DNA from: a bacterium
Lineage (GTDB): Bacteria; Patescibacteriota; UBA1384; VFKW01
Direction: 5' to 3'
NCBI GenBank assembly: GCA_030647355.1
Contig: JAUSIS010000013.1
Span: 1-48,352 of the forward strand
Length of the DNA stretch: 48,352 nt
Shown here: positions 1,470 through 14,013 of the stretch, piece by piece
How the letters are laid out: every line of letters begins with the position of its first letter
Numbering within the stretch: the stretch's first letter is position 1
The notes under the pieces: model-generated
Database searches by the model: none
The model's input: only the letters and a program-made list of their open reading frames with translations
What the model was told of the DNA's origin: nothing
Program-made: the position numbers and the translations under genes

Positions 1470-1482
1470 AAGTAAGAATTTT

Positions 1483-1559
1483 TGGTGGACCCTAGGAGAT
1501 TCGGACTCCTGACCTCCTCCGTGCAAGGGAGGCGCTCTAGCCAGCTGAGCTAAGGGCCC
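1483..1559 (-). tRNA. tRNA-Ala (anticodon TGC), CCA encoded
   Basis: GGGCCCTTAGCTCAGCTGGCTAGAGCGCCTCCCTTGCACGGAGGAGGTCAGGAGTCCGAATCTCCTAGGGTCCACCA folds as a cloverleaf; loop TTGCACG. Confidence 0.92.
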
Positions 1560-1570
1560 ACCGAAAATTC

Positions 1571-1840
1571 TTAACTACTAATTATCAATTTTATTGTCCC
1601 ATCTTCAATTATCTTTTCGATAATCTTCCTACTTTTCATCTTCTTTAATTTATGTTCAACCTTTCTTGTGTCAGAAAAACTATTATATTCTTGTTGAAAT
1701 ACCAACTCAATATTCTTACTGTATCTAGTTCCTGCTTTAATACCTTTCTTGTGTTCCTCTATGCGTCGATCAATATTTGTAGTCGATCCAATATAATATT
1801 GACCATTATCTAACTTTAAAATATAAATGTAAGATTGCAT
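1571..1840 (-). CDS. GIY-YIG domain nuclease (small UvrC-N-like)
   Basis: MQSYIYILKLDNGQYYIGSTTNIDRRIEEHKKG...; YIYIL / YYIGST motif; start taken at the internal Met of the 1571..1870 ORF. Confidence 0.85.
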   Translation of the reverse strand: MQSYIYILKLDNGQYYIGSTTNIDRRIEEHKKGIKAGTRYSKNIELVFQQEYNSFSDTRKVEHKLKKMKSRKIIEKIIEDGTIKLIISS

Positions 1841-1856
1841 ATATTCCCCAGATGAG

Positions 1857-1916
1857 TCCCGATGAAGCAAAGCTTATCGGGATCCCGCATTCCCGACACA
1901 ATGTCGGGAATGCGGG
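1857..1916. repeat. two tandem short palindromes
   Basis: TCCCGAT-N12-ATCGGGA (1857-1882), then CCCGCATTCCCGACA-CAA-TGTCGGGAATGCGGG (1884-1916, perfect 15-bp arms). Confidence 0.85.
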
Positions 1917-2852: not shown

Positions 2853-5348
2853 TCAAGAACCAGTACCACCAGAAGATAAATCTGCCAAAGTTAGGTTTAT
2901 CACCGCGCCTCTTTCCGTACCCTCGACCAGCATTTTCTTCGCCAGAAAATTCTCCAGCTTTTCTTGAATGACCCTCCGCATCGGTCTGGCGCCAAAAACA
3001 GGATCATAACCAAGTTTAACTAAATAATCCAAAGCATCAGGAGCCACCTGGATTGTTATGCCTTTGTCCTCTAGCTGCTTATTTAACCCGTCTATCATCA
3101 GCTGAGCCACTCTTGCAATCTCATCCTGCATAAGAGGTCTAAAGACGATTATCCCGCCAAAACGATTCAAAAACTCCGGTCTGTATATCCCCTGTTCCTG
3201 CAGATAATTAAGCAAATTAGTCTTCAACTCTTCAACATTACTCTGACCAGACGCCAGATATTCTCTCACCACCTCGGAACCAGCATTGGATGTAGCGATA
3301 ATAATAGTATTGGTAAAATCAATCGTCTTGCCATTTCCACCAGTCAGACGTCCATCATCAAACACCTGGAGAAACAGAGTAAGTAAATTAGGATGTGCCT
3401 TCTCAAGCTCGTCCAATAAAAGCAAACTAAACGGATTATCATGGACCGCTGAAGTCATCAACCCCGGCTGTCCTTCTGCTCCGGGACCAGCCGGTGAACC
3501 GATTAAATTATAAATAGATGCTGCATCCTGATATTCCGACATATCAAACCTAATCATCTTCTCTTCGTCACCAAAATATGCTTCCGCCAGAGCTTTTGCC
3601 ATCTCGGTTTTACCGACACCGGTCGGCCCGACAAATAAAAATGTCCCAATCGGCCGATGTTTGTCTGAAAGCCCCGATCTCGACCGTCTCATAGCATTTG
3701 CTACCGCCTCCACCGCCTCGTTTTGCCCGACAATTCTGTTATGAAGAATATTTTCCAAATTCAAAAGTCGATCTTTCTCACTGGACTGGACCGCTCCCAG
3801 CGGTACATGCGTTCTCGCGCTCACCGTATCCTCAACATCTTTATTAGTCACTATCCGATTCTTGGTCGCCGACACCTTTACAGCCACCTCGCTAGCCAAA
3901 TCAAGCGCCTTTTGAGGAAACGGCTTATCATGTATGTACCTTTCAGATAATTTTACAATTTCGTGCAATGCCTGATAGATAAAAATGACCCCATACCTAC
4001 CCTCCAAAAGAGGTACAGATTCCTCCAACATTTTCAAAGCTTCCTCGGCACTCGGCTCGGGAACATCTATTTTCTCAAATAATTCAATAATTCCCGTAGC
4101 TGTTTCTATATCTTTGTGATAACGCTCAATTGTCGTCGAGCCGATAACCTGCAAAGCCGAACCCTGTAAATATGGTAAAATAATCTCTGCCGCATTAACA
4201 CTGCCAACACTCTGCTCCGAACTAACCATTGCGTGAAAGTCATCAAAAAACAGAATCATATTTCCCGCTCTCGCTGCCTCATTCAATAGCATCTGGACTC
4301 GTCCCACTATATCCCCTTGAGTTTGACTGCCTGCCAAAAGCGCCCCTACATTAATTTGCATAATTTGCTTGTACCGAAGTGCCGGATGTACTGCTCCTCC
4401 ACTGATTTTCTGCGCCAACGCCATTATCATCGTCTTCTTTCCTACCCCATAATCCCCCACTAGAAGCACATTATTCTTTTCCGATTTTGCCAGCAATCTT
4501 TCCATCTCCTCTACATACGAACTGCGACTAAAAAGCTCGACATGCACCCCTGAATAGCCCGCCGTTTTCGTTAAATTTAATCCATACTGCTGAAGCATTT
4601 GAGTATATCCATACGCCCAATCCTGTCCGACTCCCCCGATAACCGGTTCTTCCCAAAATGGTACCTTAACCCTTTCTTTTCTCACCCTCTTATGCCAAAG
4701 GGCTACATCTATCACTGCTTTTTCGTCAATGTCCGCCATCTTGATAAGTGACTTAAAAAATTCATCCGTTTTTACTAAGCCCACTATCAAATCCTCCACC
4801 TCAAGATACGTACCTCCGGAGCTAGAAGCAAACTCCGCCGAACTTGCCAGAAGTCTTTCCATAGCACTGCTATCAAGCCGAATGTTATTTTTAACACTTT
4901 CCAGATTATTTGCATTAATGAAAATCCCCATTCTTATAAAAAGCTCACGAGATTCATTATCTTCTAGAAATCCGTACATCAGCCAAAAAGGAGACATAAC
5001 TGAATTATTCTTTTTGGCATAGCCCTCGCCTACAATAACAACTGAAATCGCCGATGTATTTGCTGCCAGCGCCAGATTAAGATTTTGGTCATTCAAGCAA
5101 TCGCCTAACAACTTGCTCGGCTTTCCATTAATAAAAGCTAATCGAAAATACACCAGAGGAGGAATTACCAGCATTAACAAAGTACCAACCAATGCCATAC
5201 TATTATTTTTTAAAATAATAGCCAATGCAAGAACCAATAATAACAAAAAGATCGCCAGAGGCAAAAAAATCTTTGCTGTCTTAAAAATATTACTCTTTTG
5301 GTACCTTACGCTTGTGGCAATATCAGTTTTATCTATCTCAAAAACCAT
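2853..5348 (-). CDS. membrane-anchored Clp/Hsp100 family AAA+ ATPase (ClpB/ClpC-like)
   Basis: Two AAA+ modules: D1 GDYGVGKKT / ILFFDDFHAM, D2 FLFVGPTGVGKTEMAKALAEAYFG / LLLLDELEKAHPNLL; RPEFLNRF; ClpB D2-small-like C-terminus; two N-terminal hydrophobic segments. Confidence 0.9.
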   Translation of the reverse strand: MVFEIDKTDIATSVRYQKSNIFKTAKIFLPLAIFLLLLVLALAIILKNNSMALVGTLLMLVIPPLVYFRLAFINGKPSKLLGDCLNDQNLNLALAANTSAISVVIVGEGYAKKNNSVMSPFWLMYGFLEDNESRELFIRMGIFINANNLESVKNNIRLDSSAMERLLASSAEFASSSGGTYLEVEDLIVGLVKTDEFFKSLIKMADIDEKAVIDVALWHKRVRKERVKVPFWEEPVIGGVGQDWAYGYTQMLQQYGLNLTKTAGYSGVHVELFSRSSYVEEMERLLAKSEKNNVLLVGDYGVGKKTMIMALAQKISGGAVHPALRYKQIMQINVGALLAGSQTQGDIVGRVQMLLNEAARAGNMILFFDDFHAMVSSEQSVGSVNAAEIILPYLQGSALQVIGSTTIERYHKDIETATGIIELFEKIDVPEPSAEEALKMLEESVPLLEGRYGVIFIYQALHEIVKLSERYIHDKPFPQKALDLASEVAVKVSATKNRIVTNKDVEDTVSARTHVPLGAVQSSEKDRLLNLENILHNRIVGQNEAVEAVANAMRRSRSGLSDKHRPIGTFLFVGPTGVGKTEMAKALAEAYFGDEEKMIRFDMSEYQDAASIYNLIGSPAGPGAEGQPGLMTSAVHDNPFSLLLLDELEKAHPNLLTLFLQVFDDGRLTGGNGKTIDFTNTIIIATSNAGSEVVREYLASGQSNVEELKTNLLNYLQEQGIYRPEFLNRFGGIIVFRPLMQDEIARVAQLMIDGLNKQLEDKGITIQVAPDALDYLVKLGYDPVFGARPMRRVIQEKLENFLAKKMLVEGTERGAVINLTLADLSSGGTGS

Positions 5349-5724
5349 TTGTCCCCCAGATAACCATCAAAACTATAAGCAAAGGAAACGCTAAATCTAT
5401 TACAATTAATGTAATACCAAAGATAAAAATAAATCCCACCATAAAAAATCCGATAATAATAGTAAACGATCGGATAATAAAAGCAACAAACCGAGTGGCT
5501 AGATTTCCCACCCAGACATGAAATTTATCACCCAATGACAAATTATCAGTCGGTACTTCATCTCTTTTCCAGGGAGAAAATAATGTCCTAAATAATTCTG
5601 GAACGGAAAAACTATGGTAAATCCTTTTACACTCCCCCATAGTTATCATCCAAAGATAAGTTGGTAGTGACACAAACCAAAATAATACAGGGTTTCTAGA
5701 AAATCGAAATGTCGCCGAGTTCAT
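5338..5724 (-). CDS. membrane protein, overlaps the start of the Clp-like ATPase
   Basis: 128 aa, two or more hydrophobic segments; GGAGGGG upstream of ATG; translationally coupled by a ~10-nt overlap. Confidence 0.75.
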   Translation of the reverse strand: MNSATFRFSRNPVLFWFVSLPTYLWMITMGECKRIYHSFSVPELFRTLFSPWKRDEVPTDNLSLGDKFHVWVGNLATRFVAFIIRSFTIIIGFFMVGFIFIFGITLIVIDLAFPLLIVLMVIWGTNGF

Positions 5725-5733
5725 ACCCCTCCT

Positions 5734-6012
5734 CCCTCACCCTTAAATTAAGCCAATCCTCTTTTTGAGCATCGCATAAGACTTAGCAAATCTTTTTAAC
5801 TGTAACTCCCTACGTTTAGCCAGGGTGAGGGTTAAATATGCTTCGTAGTATATTAATTTCCACGGACAGTAAAGCTTGGTAAACTGACTTTCCCCACTGT
5901 TATGTTCTTTCAATCGTTGCTTCAAATCTTTAGTCTGGCCTATATACAGCTTACCATTCTTTTCACTTTGTAGTAAATAAAGATAGAACATAATTTAATT
6001 TAAGGGTGAGGG
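5734..6012. repeat. perfect 18-bp inverted repeat enclosing a GIY-YIG ORF
   Basis: ccctcacccttaaattaa (5734-5751) and ttaatttaagggtgaggg (5995-6012). Confidence 0.9.
5743..5991 (-). CDS. GIY-YIG domain nuclease
   Basis: MFYLYLLQSEKNGKLYIGQTKDLKQRLKEHNSGESQFTKLYCPWKLIYYEAY...; YLYLL / LYIGQT motif; stop TAA lies in the left repeat arm. Confidence 0.88.
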   Translation of the reverse strand: MFYLYLLQSEKNGKLYIGQTKDLKQRLKEHNSGESQFTKLYCPWKLIYYEAYLTLTLAKRRELQLKRFAKSYAMLKKRIGLI

Positions 6013-6059
6013 ATCCGCTCTTCTTAATATTAAATATAACACATACGCGTGGAAAGAAA

Positions 6060-10052: not shown

Positions 10053-10578
10053 GCTTTCAAAACCACTCCCCTTGAGCTCAAATAATTTCACAAAAAAATG
10101 GGATCCGAGATGGAATACCCAGCCAACGAGAGAATACCAGCCGTGCCATTATGAGGCCCGCTTCTTTCGCCGATTGGGCGAAGCAAGGATCATTGCCTGA
10201 TCGTTCGGCATACCGGGAATCAGTTCCCTATCCGTATTGGCTTCGTACGCCGCAGAACCTCATCGAGTACCTGATTAAGATACTCTTTATCTCCTTTTGC
10301 CATACCAATCACCCCCTCAGACAGAAGACAAAACAATAGATTAAAATTATTATACAACACCACCTAATAAAACAAAGTAGCCAAAACCCTTTCCGAACAC
10401 TTCCACCCGCGAAAAACGACCGGTCCTTTGCTTCTTCAGAAAGTTGAATATCTTGAGCGCTCCACGGAAAAACGAATGCTTGACCCAGCCCTTTTCGAAA
10501 AAGAGCTGGGGAGTTTTATTTCCCTGGAAGCGAAAGGTATTCCTACGCTTCAAAAGAAGTCGTGCAGGGTATGGGTTC

Positions 10579-10625
10579 GTAAGGGATATAGGGGGCGGCA
10601 TCGAAACGAGCCCCCTTACCCCTTA
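10579..10625. repeat. strong hairpin in the spacer downstream of 16S
   Basis: GTAAGGGATATAGGGGGC-N13-GCCCCCTTACCCCTTAC. Confidence 0.6.
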
Positions 10626-10760
10626 CATAACCTGGCGCTGTCAGCACCAAAACCTAGCATATCCAAAATGCCAAAACTTTTATATCAAAAAAGCTCGGAA
10701 ATATACACTTGCGTGAAACGCTCAATAATTTTGGGATTTGAAATTTGGATTTTGAAATTT

Positions 10761-10802
10761 GAGCAACAAAAAAAGACATGTTAATGTCAATTTTTGTTGC
10801 TC
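10761..10802. repeat. perfect hairpin downstream of 16S (terminator or processing site)
   Basis: GAGCAACAAAAA / TTTTTGTTGCTC 12-bp outer arms and GACAT/ATGTC inner arms. Confidence 0.75.
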
Positions 10803-10827
10803 AGTCTCTATGTGGTTATAAGAATAC
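10799..10827. repeat. 3' arm of long-range inverted repeat bracketing pre-16S rRNA
   Basis: gctcagtctctatgtggttataagaatac; 25/29 complementary to 14014-14042, including 17 contiguous bp. Confidence 0.85.
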
Positions 10828-10976
10828 AATTATTGGTCAAAGTTCAACCAATACCGACCTGCCATGCTTCCCGCTCTTTCTCAGAAAGGGCTGGAGGCTG
10901 GCTGCCCATGTTATTACATGGGGTCTCCTTAGAAAGGAGGTGATCCATCCGCAGATTCCCCTACGGATACCTTGTT

Positions 10977-11804: not shown

Positions 11805-12199
11805 ATCGTGATCAGGTAATCTCTGTCACACCCCACTGTACGTGCGTGTCTAGCGCATACAGCGAGTCCCTAATATTAATTAGGGTTCATCCCTTCCCTG
11901 GAATATTACCAGGTACTATGGACTCAGCTGACTTCCTCGCATATTCAATGATTACTTACGTGCAAGGATCTCCTTGGGTCACATAATCGGCTATTTCTGA
12001 TATTCCTCTGAGTTTGTCAAGATTTCTTCCCCTGCGTACACCGCAGGGTCGAAATAACTCTTTTTAAAGAAGACTACCATTTGTTTATTGGACCCTTCAG
12101 ACTTTTCCTTACGAAAGAAGTCCTGTCCTCAACTTCACCAATAATATTGGGGTTGGATTTGCACCAACTAGTCAATTATGCTGCCAAGCGCATTTATTT
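11805..12199 (-). mobile_element. ORF-less group II intron (group IIC-like) in 16S rRNA after E. coli position ~A1396
   Basis: GAAGTCAGCTGAGTCCATAGTACC (conserved group II segment); domain V CGCTGTATGCGCTAGACACGCACGTACAGTGGGG with CGC triad; domain VI GTGACAG-loop-CTG-A-TCAC; 3' end GAT (AY). Confidence 0.87.
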
Positions 12200-12400
12200 T
12201 GTACAAGGATCGAGAACGTATTCACCGTGGCGTAGCTGATCCACGGTTACTAGCGATTCCGGCTTCATGTAGTCGAGTTTCAGACTACAATCCGAACTGA
12301 GGCACATTTTGGTGGGATTGGCTCCGCCTCACGGCTTAGCAACCCATTGTCTGTGCCATTGTAACACGAGTGTAGCCCAGGGCGTAAGGGCCACGCTGAT

Positions 12401-12431
<31 letters not shown>

Positions 12432-12778
12432 GACCGGCAGTCCCATGTGACATGTATAACACATGGTAAGGGTTGCGCTCGTTTACGGACTTAACCGCAC
12501 ACTTCACAGCACGAGCTGACGACAACCGTGCAACACCTGTCTTAGGGTTCCTTGCGGCACTCCTCTGTTTCCAGAGGATTCCCTAGATGTCAAGCCCTGG
12601 TAAGGTTCTCCGCTTAGCGTCGAATTAAACCTCATGTTCCACCGCTTGTGCGATCCCCCGTCAATTCCTTTGAGTTTTAGTCTTGCGACCGTACTTCCCA
12701 GGCGGCAGACTTAACGCGTTAGCTTCGCTACAAGAAGGGTCGATACTTCTGATAGCTAGTCTGCATAGTTTACGGCGT

Positions 12779-12812
<34 letters not shown>

Positions 12813-13041
12813 ACGCTTTCATGCCTCAGTGTCAGATTAACCTAGCAAGCTGCCTTCGCCATTGGTGTTCCTCCCGATATCAACGGATTTCACTCCTACA
12901 CCGGGAATTCCACTTGCCCCTGTTATACTCTAGTTTAAGAGTTTTGTCCGCGAGAATCAGGTTGAGCCTGAAGATTTAACGGACAACTTCTCAAACCACC
13001 TACGCATTCTTTACGCCCAATAATTCCGGATAACGCTTGCG

Positions 13042-13081
<40 letters not shown>

Positions 13082-13351
13082 CGCTTATTCCTAGGGTACC
13101 GTCATCATCGTCCCCTATAAAAGAAGTTTACAACCCGAAAGCCTTCATCCTTCACGCGGTGTCGCGACATCAGAGTTGCCTCCATTGTGTACGATTCCCA
13201 ACTGCTGCCTCCCGTAGGAGTATGGGCCGTGTCTCAGTCCCATTGTGGCTGACCATCCTCTCAGACCAGCTACCCGTCATCGCCTTGGTAGGCTATTACC
13301 CCACCAACAAGCTGATAGGACGCAGGCTTCTCCCGAACCGATAAATCTTTA

Positions 13352-13447
13352 CCCAGCCCCTTCTAAAACCACATAGTTCTACCGAGATGAAATGTTTTTA
13401 TTCGCTTCATCAGACAGTAAATATATGTAACTTTAGAAGGAGCTGGG
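13352..13447 (-). other. expanded V2-region helix of 16S (extension about 96 nt)
   Basis: cccagccccttctaaa / tttagaaggagctggg complementary arms enclosing a further GATGAA...TTCATC hairpin. Confidence 0.7.
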
Positions 13448-13541
13448 ACCATGGGACATTAGCCAGCCTTTCGGCTGGGTATTTCCCAGTTCGGGGCAAA
13501 TTCCTACGCGTTACTCACCCGTTCGCCACTAGCCGTCCATT

Positions 13542-13775
13542 CTACACTTGAAGAGATTCAAGCAATCGATTTTTTAGATGACCCAATCCAGAGCCAAAGT
13601 TTTTCAACTTTCTTTCTCTTTCTTGAGCATCCATTTTACTTCTATATGCTTCGTAATAGATCAATTCACAAGGATATTTATTCTTATGCTCAGATAATCT
13701 TCTCTTTAGATCGGAAGAAAATCCAATATAAATCGATTGCGAATTATATCTTTTAAGCAAATATACATAATACAT
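13542..13775 (-). CDS. GIY-YIG domain nuclease within the 16S V1 loop
   Basis: MYYVYLLKRYNSQSIYIGFSSDLKRRLSEHKNKYPCELIYYEAYRSKMDAQERERKLKNFG; YVYLL / IYIGFS motif; stop TAG at the V1 stem. Confidence 0.88.
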   Translation of the reverse strand: MYYVYLLKRYNSQSIYIGFSSDLKRRLSEHKNKYPCELIYYEAYRSKMDAQERERKLKNFGSGLGHLKNRLLESLQV

Positions 13776-13801
13776 ATTGCTATTATATCACCCTCAAATA
13801 C
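13544..13801 (-). mobile_element. GIY-YIG-encoding insertion in V1 apical loop of 16S
   Basis: Flanked by rRNA helix arms agccgtccattct (13531-13543) and agaatgggcggct (13802-13814). Confidence 0.8.
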
Positions 13802-13840
13802 AGAATGGGCGGCTCGTTCGACTTGCATGTGTTAGGCACA

Positions 13841-13876
<36 letters not shown>

Positions 13877-14013
13877 AATATTGATTTAGATCTTTCGCCA
13901 ACTGCTATATAAATACAACAACGGCGATCCCTCATCCTTCAAAGAAGGGTGAGAGGAGTTTTACTTCGCATCTTTCCAGCTCTTTCCGAAGAAAGTGCTG
14001 GATTATATCGAAG

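Follow-up and report, generated by a model that had tools for sequence, protein, structure and literature searches.

What is a small nuclease gene doing between the arms of a perfect inverted repeat, directly beside the ribosome-binding site of another gene? The question is raised by a locus in a 48,352-nucleotide stretch of DNA, here called the window, from a bacterium of the Patescibacteriota whose genome is 1.04 Mb in size and 100% complete. Gene content, genome size and named relatives (Uhrbacteria, Gottesmanbacteria and Parcubacteria) likewise suggest a member of the Patescibacteria/CPR. The likely answer, on the evidence set out below, is that the locus is one copy of a palindrome-bounded mobile element of about 280–320 bp with a single GIY-YIG nuclease, which would drive insertion while a stem formed by the arms would spare the host.

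The unit in the window

The arms are perfect over 19 bp (TCCCTCACCCTTAAATTAA and its exact reverse complement), one base pair longer than originally predicted. They are separated by 243 nt. As predicted, they enclose a 249-bp GIY-YIG open reading frame (ORF), stop codon included, and nothing else. The TAA stop (5743-5745) falls within the left arm and the ATG start (5989-5991) lies 3 nt from the right arm, where about 4 nt had been estimated. The expected contact between the left arm and the GGAGGGG Shine-Dalgarno sequence of the next gene was also found, the two being directly adjoining (Table 1). No other pair of perfect inverted repeats of at least 16 bp with a loop of at most 600 nt occurs in the window, and a search for further matches within 3 mismatches found none (0.13 expected).

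Table 1. Features of the repeat-bounded unit and its surroundings, in window coordinates.
Feature	Position	Strand	Remarks
Left arm	5733..5751		3' end of the element in the reading direction of the ORF; holds the ORF's TAA stop
GIY-YIG ORF, 82 aa, PF01541	5743..5991	-	Y5, Y16, G18, R26, H30 and E62 kept
Right arm	5995..6013		5' end of the element in the reading direction of the ORF
Whole mobile unit, 281 bp	5733..6013	-	Architecture common to 47/133 relatives; limits from same-genome paralogues in related genomes
Shine-Dalgarno GGAGGGG of downstream gene	5726..5732	-	Element directly upstream
Third CCCTCACCCT copy in ORF, coding TLTLA	5815..5831	-	On the coding strand, in the orientation of the 5' arm
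Host gene, 128-aa membrane protein	5338..5724	-	Upstream of a ClpB/ClpA-like AAA+ gene; Shine-Dalgarno entered by the element

The third CCCTCACCCT copy, inside the ORF, is absent from the nearest relative.

A family of repeat-bounded genes

GIY-YIG relatives and their flanks were gathered from the same class and phylum, giving 134 distinct loci. For each locus the best repeat hugging the ORF was scored (threshold at least 12), with equal-length spans shifted by 350–700 bp in the same loci as controls. Hugging repeats were found at 47 of 133 loci, compared with one of 760 shifted spans. An arm-only pattern searched in 380 genomes matched 11 places, seven of them with a GIY-YIG ORF, and the reversed pattern matched none. 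The shift control and the pattern search together rule out a chance repeat. The four remaining places are ORF-less, and two of these belong to a generic REP type (CCCTCACCC...CCCTCTCCC), whose signature the window arms do not carry.

The arms match each other within each locus and vary between loci. Examples other than the window are CCCCTCACCCTTTAGA.. (L027), CCCAGCACCCTTGAGATTA (L028), CCCCGCACCCTTCGTGCTA (L029), CCCCGCACCTGAAAATGCTA (L063), CCCCGCTCTTTGGATTGCAT (L081/L096) and CCCCGTAGAGAAATTTAGGAT (L107/L109). Across the family they are about 13–22 bp long, often of the form CCC(C/T/A)(G/T/A)CACC(C/T)TT..., and surround one gene for a GIY-YIG protein of about 80–90 residues, in a unit of about 280–320 bp.

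A conserved ORF without conserved arms had been named as the observation that would speak against the original prediction. All nine loci of the protein subclade nearest the window protein, a subclade with weak support (83), have arms, and since the sequences of these arms differ, the pair is maintained while its sequence drifts. More distant homologues do occur without arms, and about half of them adjoin a tRNA gene. Among viral contigs, a scan with the family alignment found one partial relative only (L226) and thus gives no sign that phages carry the element.

Boundaries, target duplications and empty sites

Evidence for the limits of the unit is provided by paralogues within one genome. Two copies in genome G039 (L056 and L061) are 89% identical over 1456-1772, where the arms span 1456-1767, and their flanks are unrelated. 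A second same-genome pair, L107 and L109 in G125, behaves likewise and matches over 835-1148 (arms 838-1146).

In 21 of 48 loci, direct duplications of at least 2 bp border the arms without a gap, whereas mismatched pairs of flanks would give about 4.8 such loci. For duplications of at least 4 bp the count is about a dozen (five untrimmed and eight with one complementary outer base removed, L074 being in both counts), compared with about 0.5 expected. The 4-bp duplication TTGA/TCAA recurs at L056, L061, L066 and L084, and at the ORF-less L213 and L224. In roughly half of the copies no duplication of the target is visible, which speaks against the model; most of these lie in RNA genes, with arms that take over from a hairpin of the host instead of interrupting it.

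In the sister genome G001, the only other genome of the family that was searched, a 64%-identical ortholog of the gene downstream of the window element lacks the element. The empty site there reads tttGGAGGAGGGGAATGAACTCG, compared with GGA-element-GGAGGGGTATGAACTCG in the window; in a longer view of the leader, tttatttGGAGGAGGGGAATGAACTCG corresponds to aagagcGGA-element-GGAGGGGTATGAACTCG. A second GGA borders the opposite end of the window element, at 6014-6016, and the empty ortholog already has GGAGGAGGGG. Because GGA-GGA pre-exists in the sister genome, target duplication is ambiguous for the window copy, and its GGA is not claimed as a clean one. At the same leader site, genome G038 carries an ORF-less hairpin, GGGTAGTCAAATTTTCACTACCTGG, with the same sequence as the arms in a second subfamily of the element (L033-L035).

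The unit is thus a discrete, arm-bounded one. Its copies are inserted at numerous unrelated positions, in many cases beside a short target duplication, and derivatives with the same arms but no ORF occur along with them. Its mobility and its boundaries are well supported by these comparisons of sequence, and the suggestion of a minimal mobile unit in the original prediction gains strong support from the arm-to-arm paralogues, the target duplications, the empty sites and the ORF-less copies with the same arms. As it had proposed, related genomes were searched for arms with and without the ORF and for empty sites, and both were found.

The GIY-YIG protein and a possible mechanism

The window ORF matches PF01541 with 60.2 bits against a cut-off of 22.6 (E=2.4e-16). 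Among 45 proteins of the family, Y5 and H30 are present in all 45, Y16 and R26 in 44, and E62 in all 44 proteins with a residue at that position. Between the paralogues L056 and L061, dN is 0.026 and dS is 0.656 (dN/dS 0.04), a sign of strong purifying selection, and the protein therefore matters to the element. The closest solved structures in a profile search are of the UPF0213/SLX1 type (PDB 1zg2, 1ywl and 7wme). The score against TIGR01453, the model for GIY-YIG endonucleases of group I introns, is 26.2 bits and lies below the curated cut-off of 56.05. A group I or group II intron was considered and rejected, as Rfam has no match at 5733-6013.

Boundary repeats, family-level target duplications and empty sites are all features of IS-like elements with terminal inverted repeats, but a known transposase of the DDE, HUH, serine or tyrosine type is not among the features found here. 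Pfam and NCBIfam identify neither a transposase in general nor a Y1/HUH transposase in the window unit, whose sole ORF is the GIY-YIG gene, and no second gene is shared among the elements.

We infer that the nuclease drives insertion. The GIY-YIG protein would recognise the hairpin formed by the arms, the target (TTGA/TCAA, hairpin tips, or Shine-Dalgarno and start sites), or both, and would make a staggered cut, after which the element would enter by joining or by copying. Once transcribed, the two arms would pair and present the ORF as a loop at the end of a stem, so that the host could still use its rRNA, RNase P RNA or mRNA leader. The window copy landed in the Shine-Dalgarno region of the downstream gene and did not disrupt GGAGGGG, which adjoins the stem. 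In this way the arms probably make the insertion tolerable for the host.

A wider version of this model can also be considered. Here the element's only protein, of about 82 residues, would itself carry out insertion by acting on the palindromic ends of its unit, and would also mobilise ORF-less and tRNA-carrying palindromes; it would prefer RNA hairpins, and its arms would join the structure of the host rRNA or RNase P RNA. The chances of this version are about even.

ORF-less copies

Arm matches without an ORF in the same loci number 46, compared with 6.8 expected, and 15 of the 46 come from another repeat class at L003. The pairs at L029, L063, L067 and L092 are perfect. Arms identical to those of the local element, again ORF-less, are found at helix P12 of RNase P RNA (L029 and L063), in 23S rRNA (L092), in 16S rRNA (L067) and near L035. 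The genome of the window itself has CCCCTCACCCTTTAG...AAGGGTGAGGGG at the P3 position of RNase P RNA. A pattern search for ORF-less pairs of 67–127 bp overall found them in 12 of 32 element-bearing genomes compared with 2 of 32 element-free ones, the matches including a few CCCTCTCCC-type REP or tRNA-enclosing pairs.

Such copies are an argument for an alternative in which the element is mobile and the GIY-YIG gene is its cargo or a homing helper, the arms being moved by a different transposase or through recombination by the host. The same arms are often found without the ORF and also surround tRNA genes, so that no ORF in cis is needed for them to move or to be retained. In bacteria, the enzyme of a terminal-repeat element is normally of the DDE or HUH type, and another enzyme could act in trans, since to our knowledge no GIY-YIG protein acts alone as a transposase. 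On the other hand, the same ORF is the sole gene in elements from many genera, its catalytic residues are kept in nearly all 45 proteins, dN/dS between the paralogues is low, and the elements have no second gene in common. This makes the alternative unlikely, and an element moved by its own nuclease is preferred.

Two candidates were set aside. The nearly identical ORF-less pair L211/L212 is not taken as an independent mobile derivative, as its flanks are homologous too and the pair belongs to a larger duplication. The CATTGCGAG/GCAATCT repeats around L003 were excluded as a different repeat class. Dense CATTGCGAG..GCAATCT repeats of a different class also surround another GIY-YIG gene at L014 (1480-2320, G000:C5).

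Further palindromes were observed along the way. Two genomes of the class have short CCCCGCACCC hairpins whose interiors resemble each other (GGAACACGGA..ATA.TCCGAG), L219 in G046 and L221 in G003, and the one at L219 lies within a 16S rRNA gene. In the window, an ORF-less palindrome, CCCAGCCCCTTCT...AGAAGGAGCTGGG, occupies 13352-13447 in the 16S gene (12186-13882, minus strand). Arms similar to it are found at 10485-10894, in RNase P RNA (L013, 1340-1430) and at L014.

Association with tRNA genes

Whole tRNA genes lie within CCCCGCACC/CCCCTCAC-type arms at L214-L217 and L222 (in G225, in G186 and at C12:106019 in the window's own genome). It looks as if the acceptor stem had been extended or the tRNA were cargo, and a simple terminal-repeat transposon does not explain these arrangements.

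A tRNA gene on the same strand within 100 nt past the stop codon is found at 37 of 89 arm-less loci compared with 2 of 45 arm-bearing ones. Examples of arm-less loci are L016, L041, L057, L091, L113, L138 and L141. At several of them an apparent duplicate of the 5' tRNA fragment, with a palindrome, lies upstream of the ORF. This looks like a second mode of insertion, into tRNA genes.

In the window, at 1473-1870 (minus strand), a GIY-YIG ORF at 1571-1870 is followed after 11 nt by a tRNA-Ala gene (1486-1559), which is enclosed by 21-nt complementary arms (1473-1493/1553-1573).

Insertion targets

The window copy lies outside rRNA, as judged with Rfam. It is at a Shine-Dalgarno or start codon, as are L033, L035, L085, L107, L109, L129 and L147. 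Other copies are in RNase P RNA (L027, L028, L029, L062, L063, L081 and L096), in 16S rRNA (L031, L068, L078, L112 and L067) or at its 3' end (L064), in 23S rRNA (L065 and L092), and at the edge of tRNA genes (L069, L074, L090 and L117). Of these, the start-codon placings and the RNase P placing of L029, L081 and L096 come from manual reading of the sequence. Where the host RNA is structured, the arms stand in for its own stem.

Some sites recur, namely helix P3 of RNase P RNA in seven loci and the helix-6 region of 16S rRNA in three. The RNase P RNA genes of genus g189 share a near-identical leader, AAGCAA(A/G)(C/T)CGAATAATCG, which is followed by the element in G318 and by a short P3 hairpin in G213, G384, G399 and G325; after the element or hairpin comes AGGAAAGTCC.

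Recurrent sites, together with presence and absence at P3 within one genus, are what a homing process would produce. The nuclease would cut element-free hairpin alleles (RNase P P3 or 16S helix 6) and spread by gene conversion, and the arms would be kept for the host RNA stem. However, the sister proteins of L062 (RNase P) and L064 (16S 3' end) are at different sites, and L056 and L061 sit in unrelated flanks in the same genome. Nor is an RNA stem needed at the many copies that lie between genes or at start codons and have target duplications. Homing is thus an improbable explanation.

A third GIY-YIG ORF in the window, at 13542-13775 (minus strand), lies near the 5' end of the 16S gene and has degenerate arms. 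Its site is apparently the helix-6 region matched in L031, L068 and L078.

The predicted RNA stem

On the RNA strand, the fold that had been proposed is also predicted by computation: all 19 bp are paired with the ORF in the loop, and the whole fold has z = -2.29. Such a stem is plausible because many copies lie in rRNA or RNase P RNA with their arms replacing a host hairpin. The idea that the repeat is only a regulatory stem, which governs how the nuclease or the downstream gene is translated and involves no mobility, draws on this fold and on the arm adjoining the next gene's Shine-Dalgarno, but as a sole explanation it is contradicted and very improbable, as the positions of the arms agree with the limits of the element, the target duplications and the empty sites, and the context is different in every genome.

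Relation to known systems

GIY-YIG ORFs have been reported in insertions within 16S and 23S rRNA genes of CPR bacteria, and these insertions do not resemble introns of group I or of group II (PMC11270868, 2024). They are at the tops or bases of stem-loops and are unclustered by site, and homing is not apparent. The text of PMC11270868 contains no occurrence of inverted repeats, hairpins or palindromes, and therefore no defined unit is described there. The present analysis adds copies in RNase P RNA, beside tRNA genes and at Shine-Dalgarno sequences, as well as copies that lack the ORF. In the open-access library that was searched, no description of repeat-bounded GIY-YIG units, of their target duplications or of these other targets was found. 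The family is widespread and, it appears, undescribed.

A similar organisation is seen in the REP/RAYT system (REPtron), in which a small nuclease gene has palindromes on both sides and such palindromes are also scattered singly over the genome. The RAYT enzymes belong to the Y1/HUH type and their palindromes carry a GTAG tag, whereas here the enzyme is of the GIY-YIG family, the arms are the outer ends and duplications of 4 bp occur. Intervening sequences (IVS) of 23S rRNA with an IVP/S23 ORF are likewise stem-forming insertions into rRNA helices with a small ORF, but the present elements encode another protein family, are also found at non-rRNA sites and have target duplications. An IVS is located in rRNA and excised by RNase III, and the window copy does not lie in an rRNA.

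GIY-YIG homing endonucleases, both of the I-TevI type and free-standing, share the catalytic domain and the principle of a gene promoting its own spread. They differ from the present elements, which have neither a DNA-binding tail beyond the roughly 82 residues nor an intron, and which do have ectopic sites and terminal inverted repeats. Proteins of the UPF0213/SLX1 type are host proteins. SLX1 cuts branched DNA, and we know of no repeat-bounded member of this group. Finally, Rickettsia palindromic elements and yeast mitochondrial GC clusters are short palindromes tolerated in genes, but they have no nuclease gene inside.

Significance

The unexplained GIY-YIG insertions in the rRNA of candidate-phyla bacteria thereby gain an identity, and their range now also takes in RNase P RNA, positions beside tRNA genes and Shine-Dalgarno sequences. 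Part of the expansion of rRNA and RNase P RNA in these bacteria is explained, an expansion that complicates their 16S-based detection. If the nuclease is indeed the mover, the unit, at 281 bp here, would be among the smallest protein-coding mobile elements, and a hairpin-recognising nuclease together with palindromic ends could suffice for mobility.
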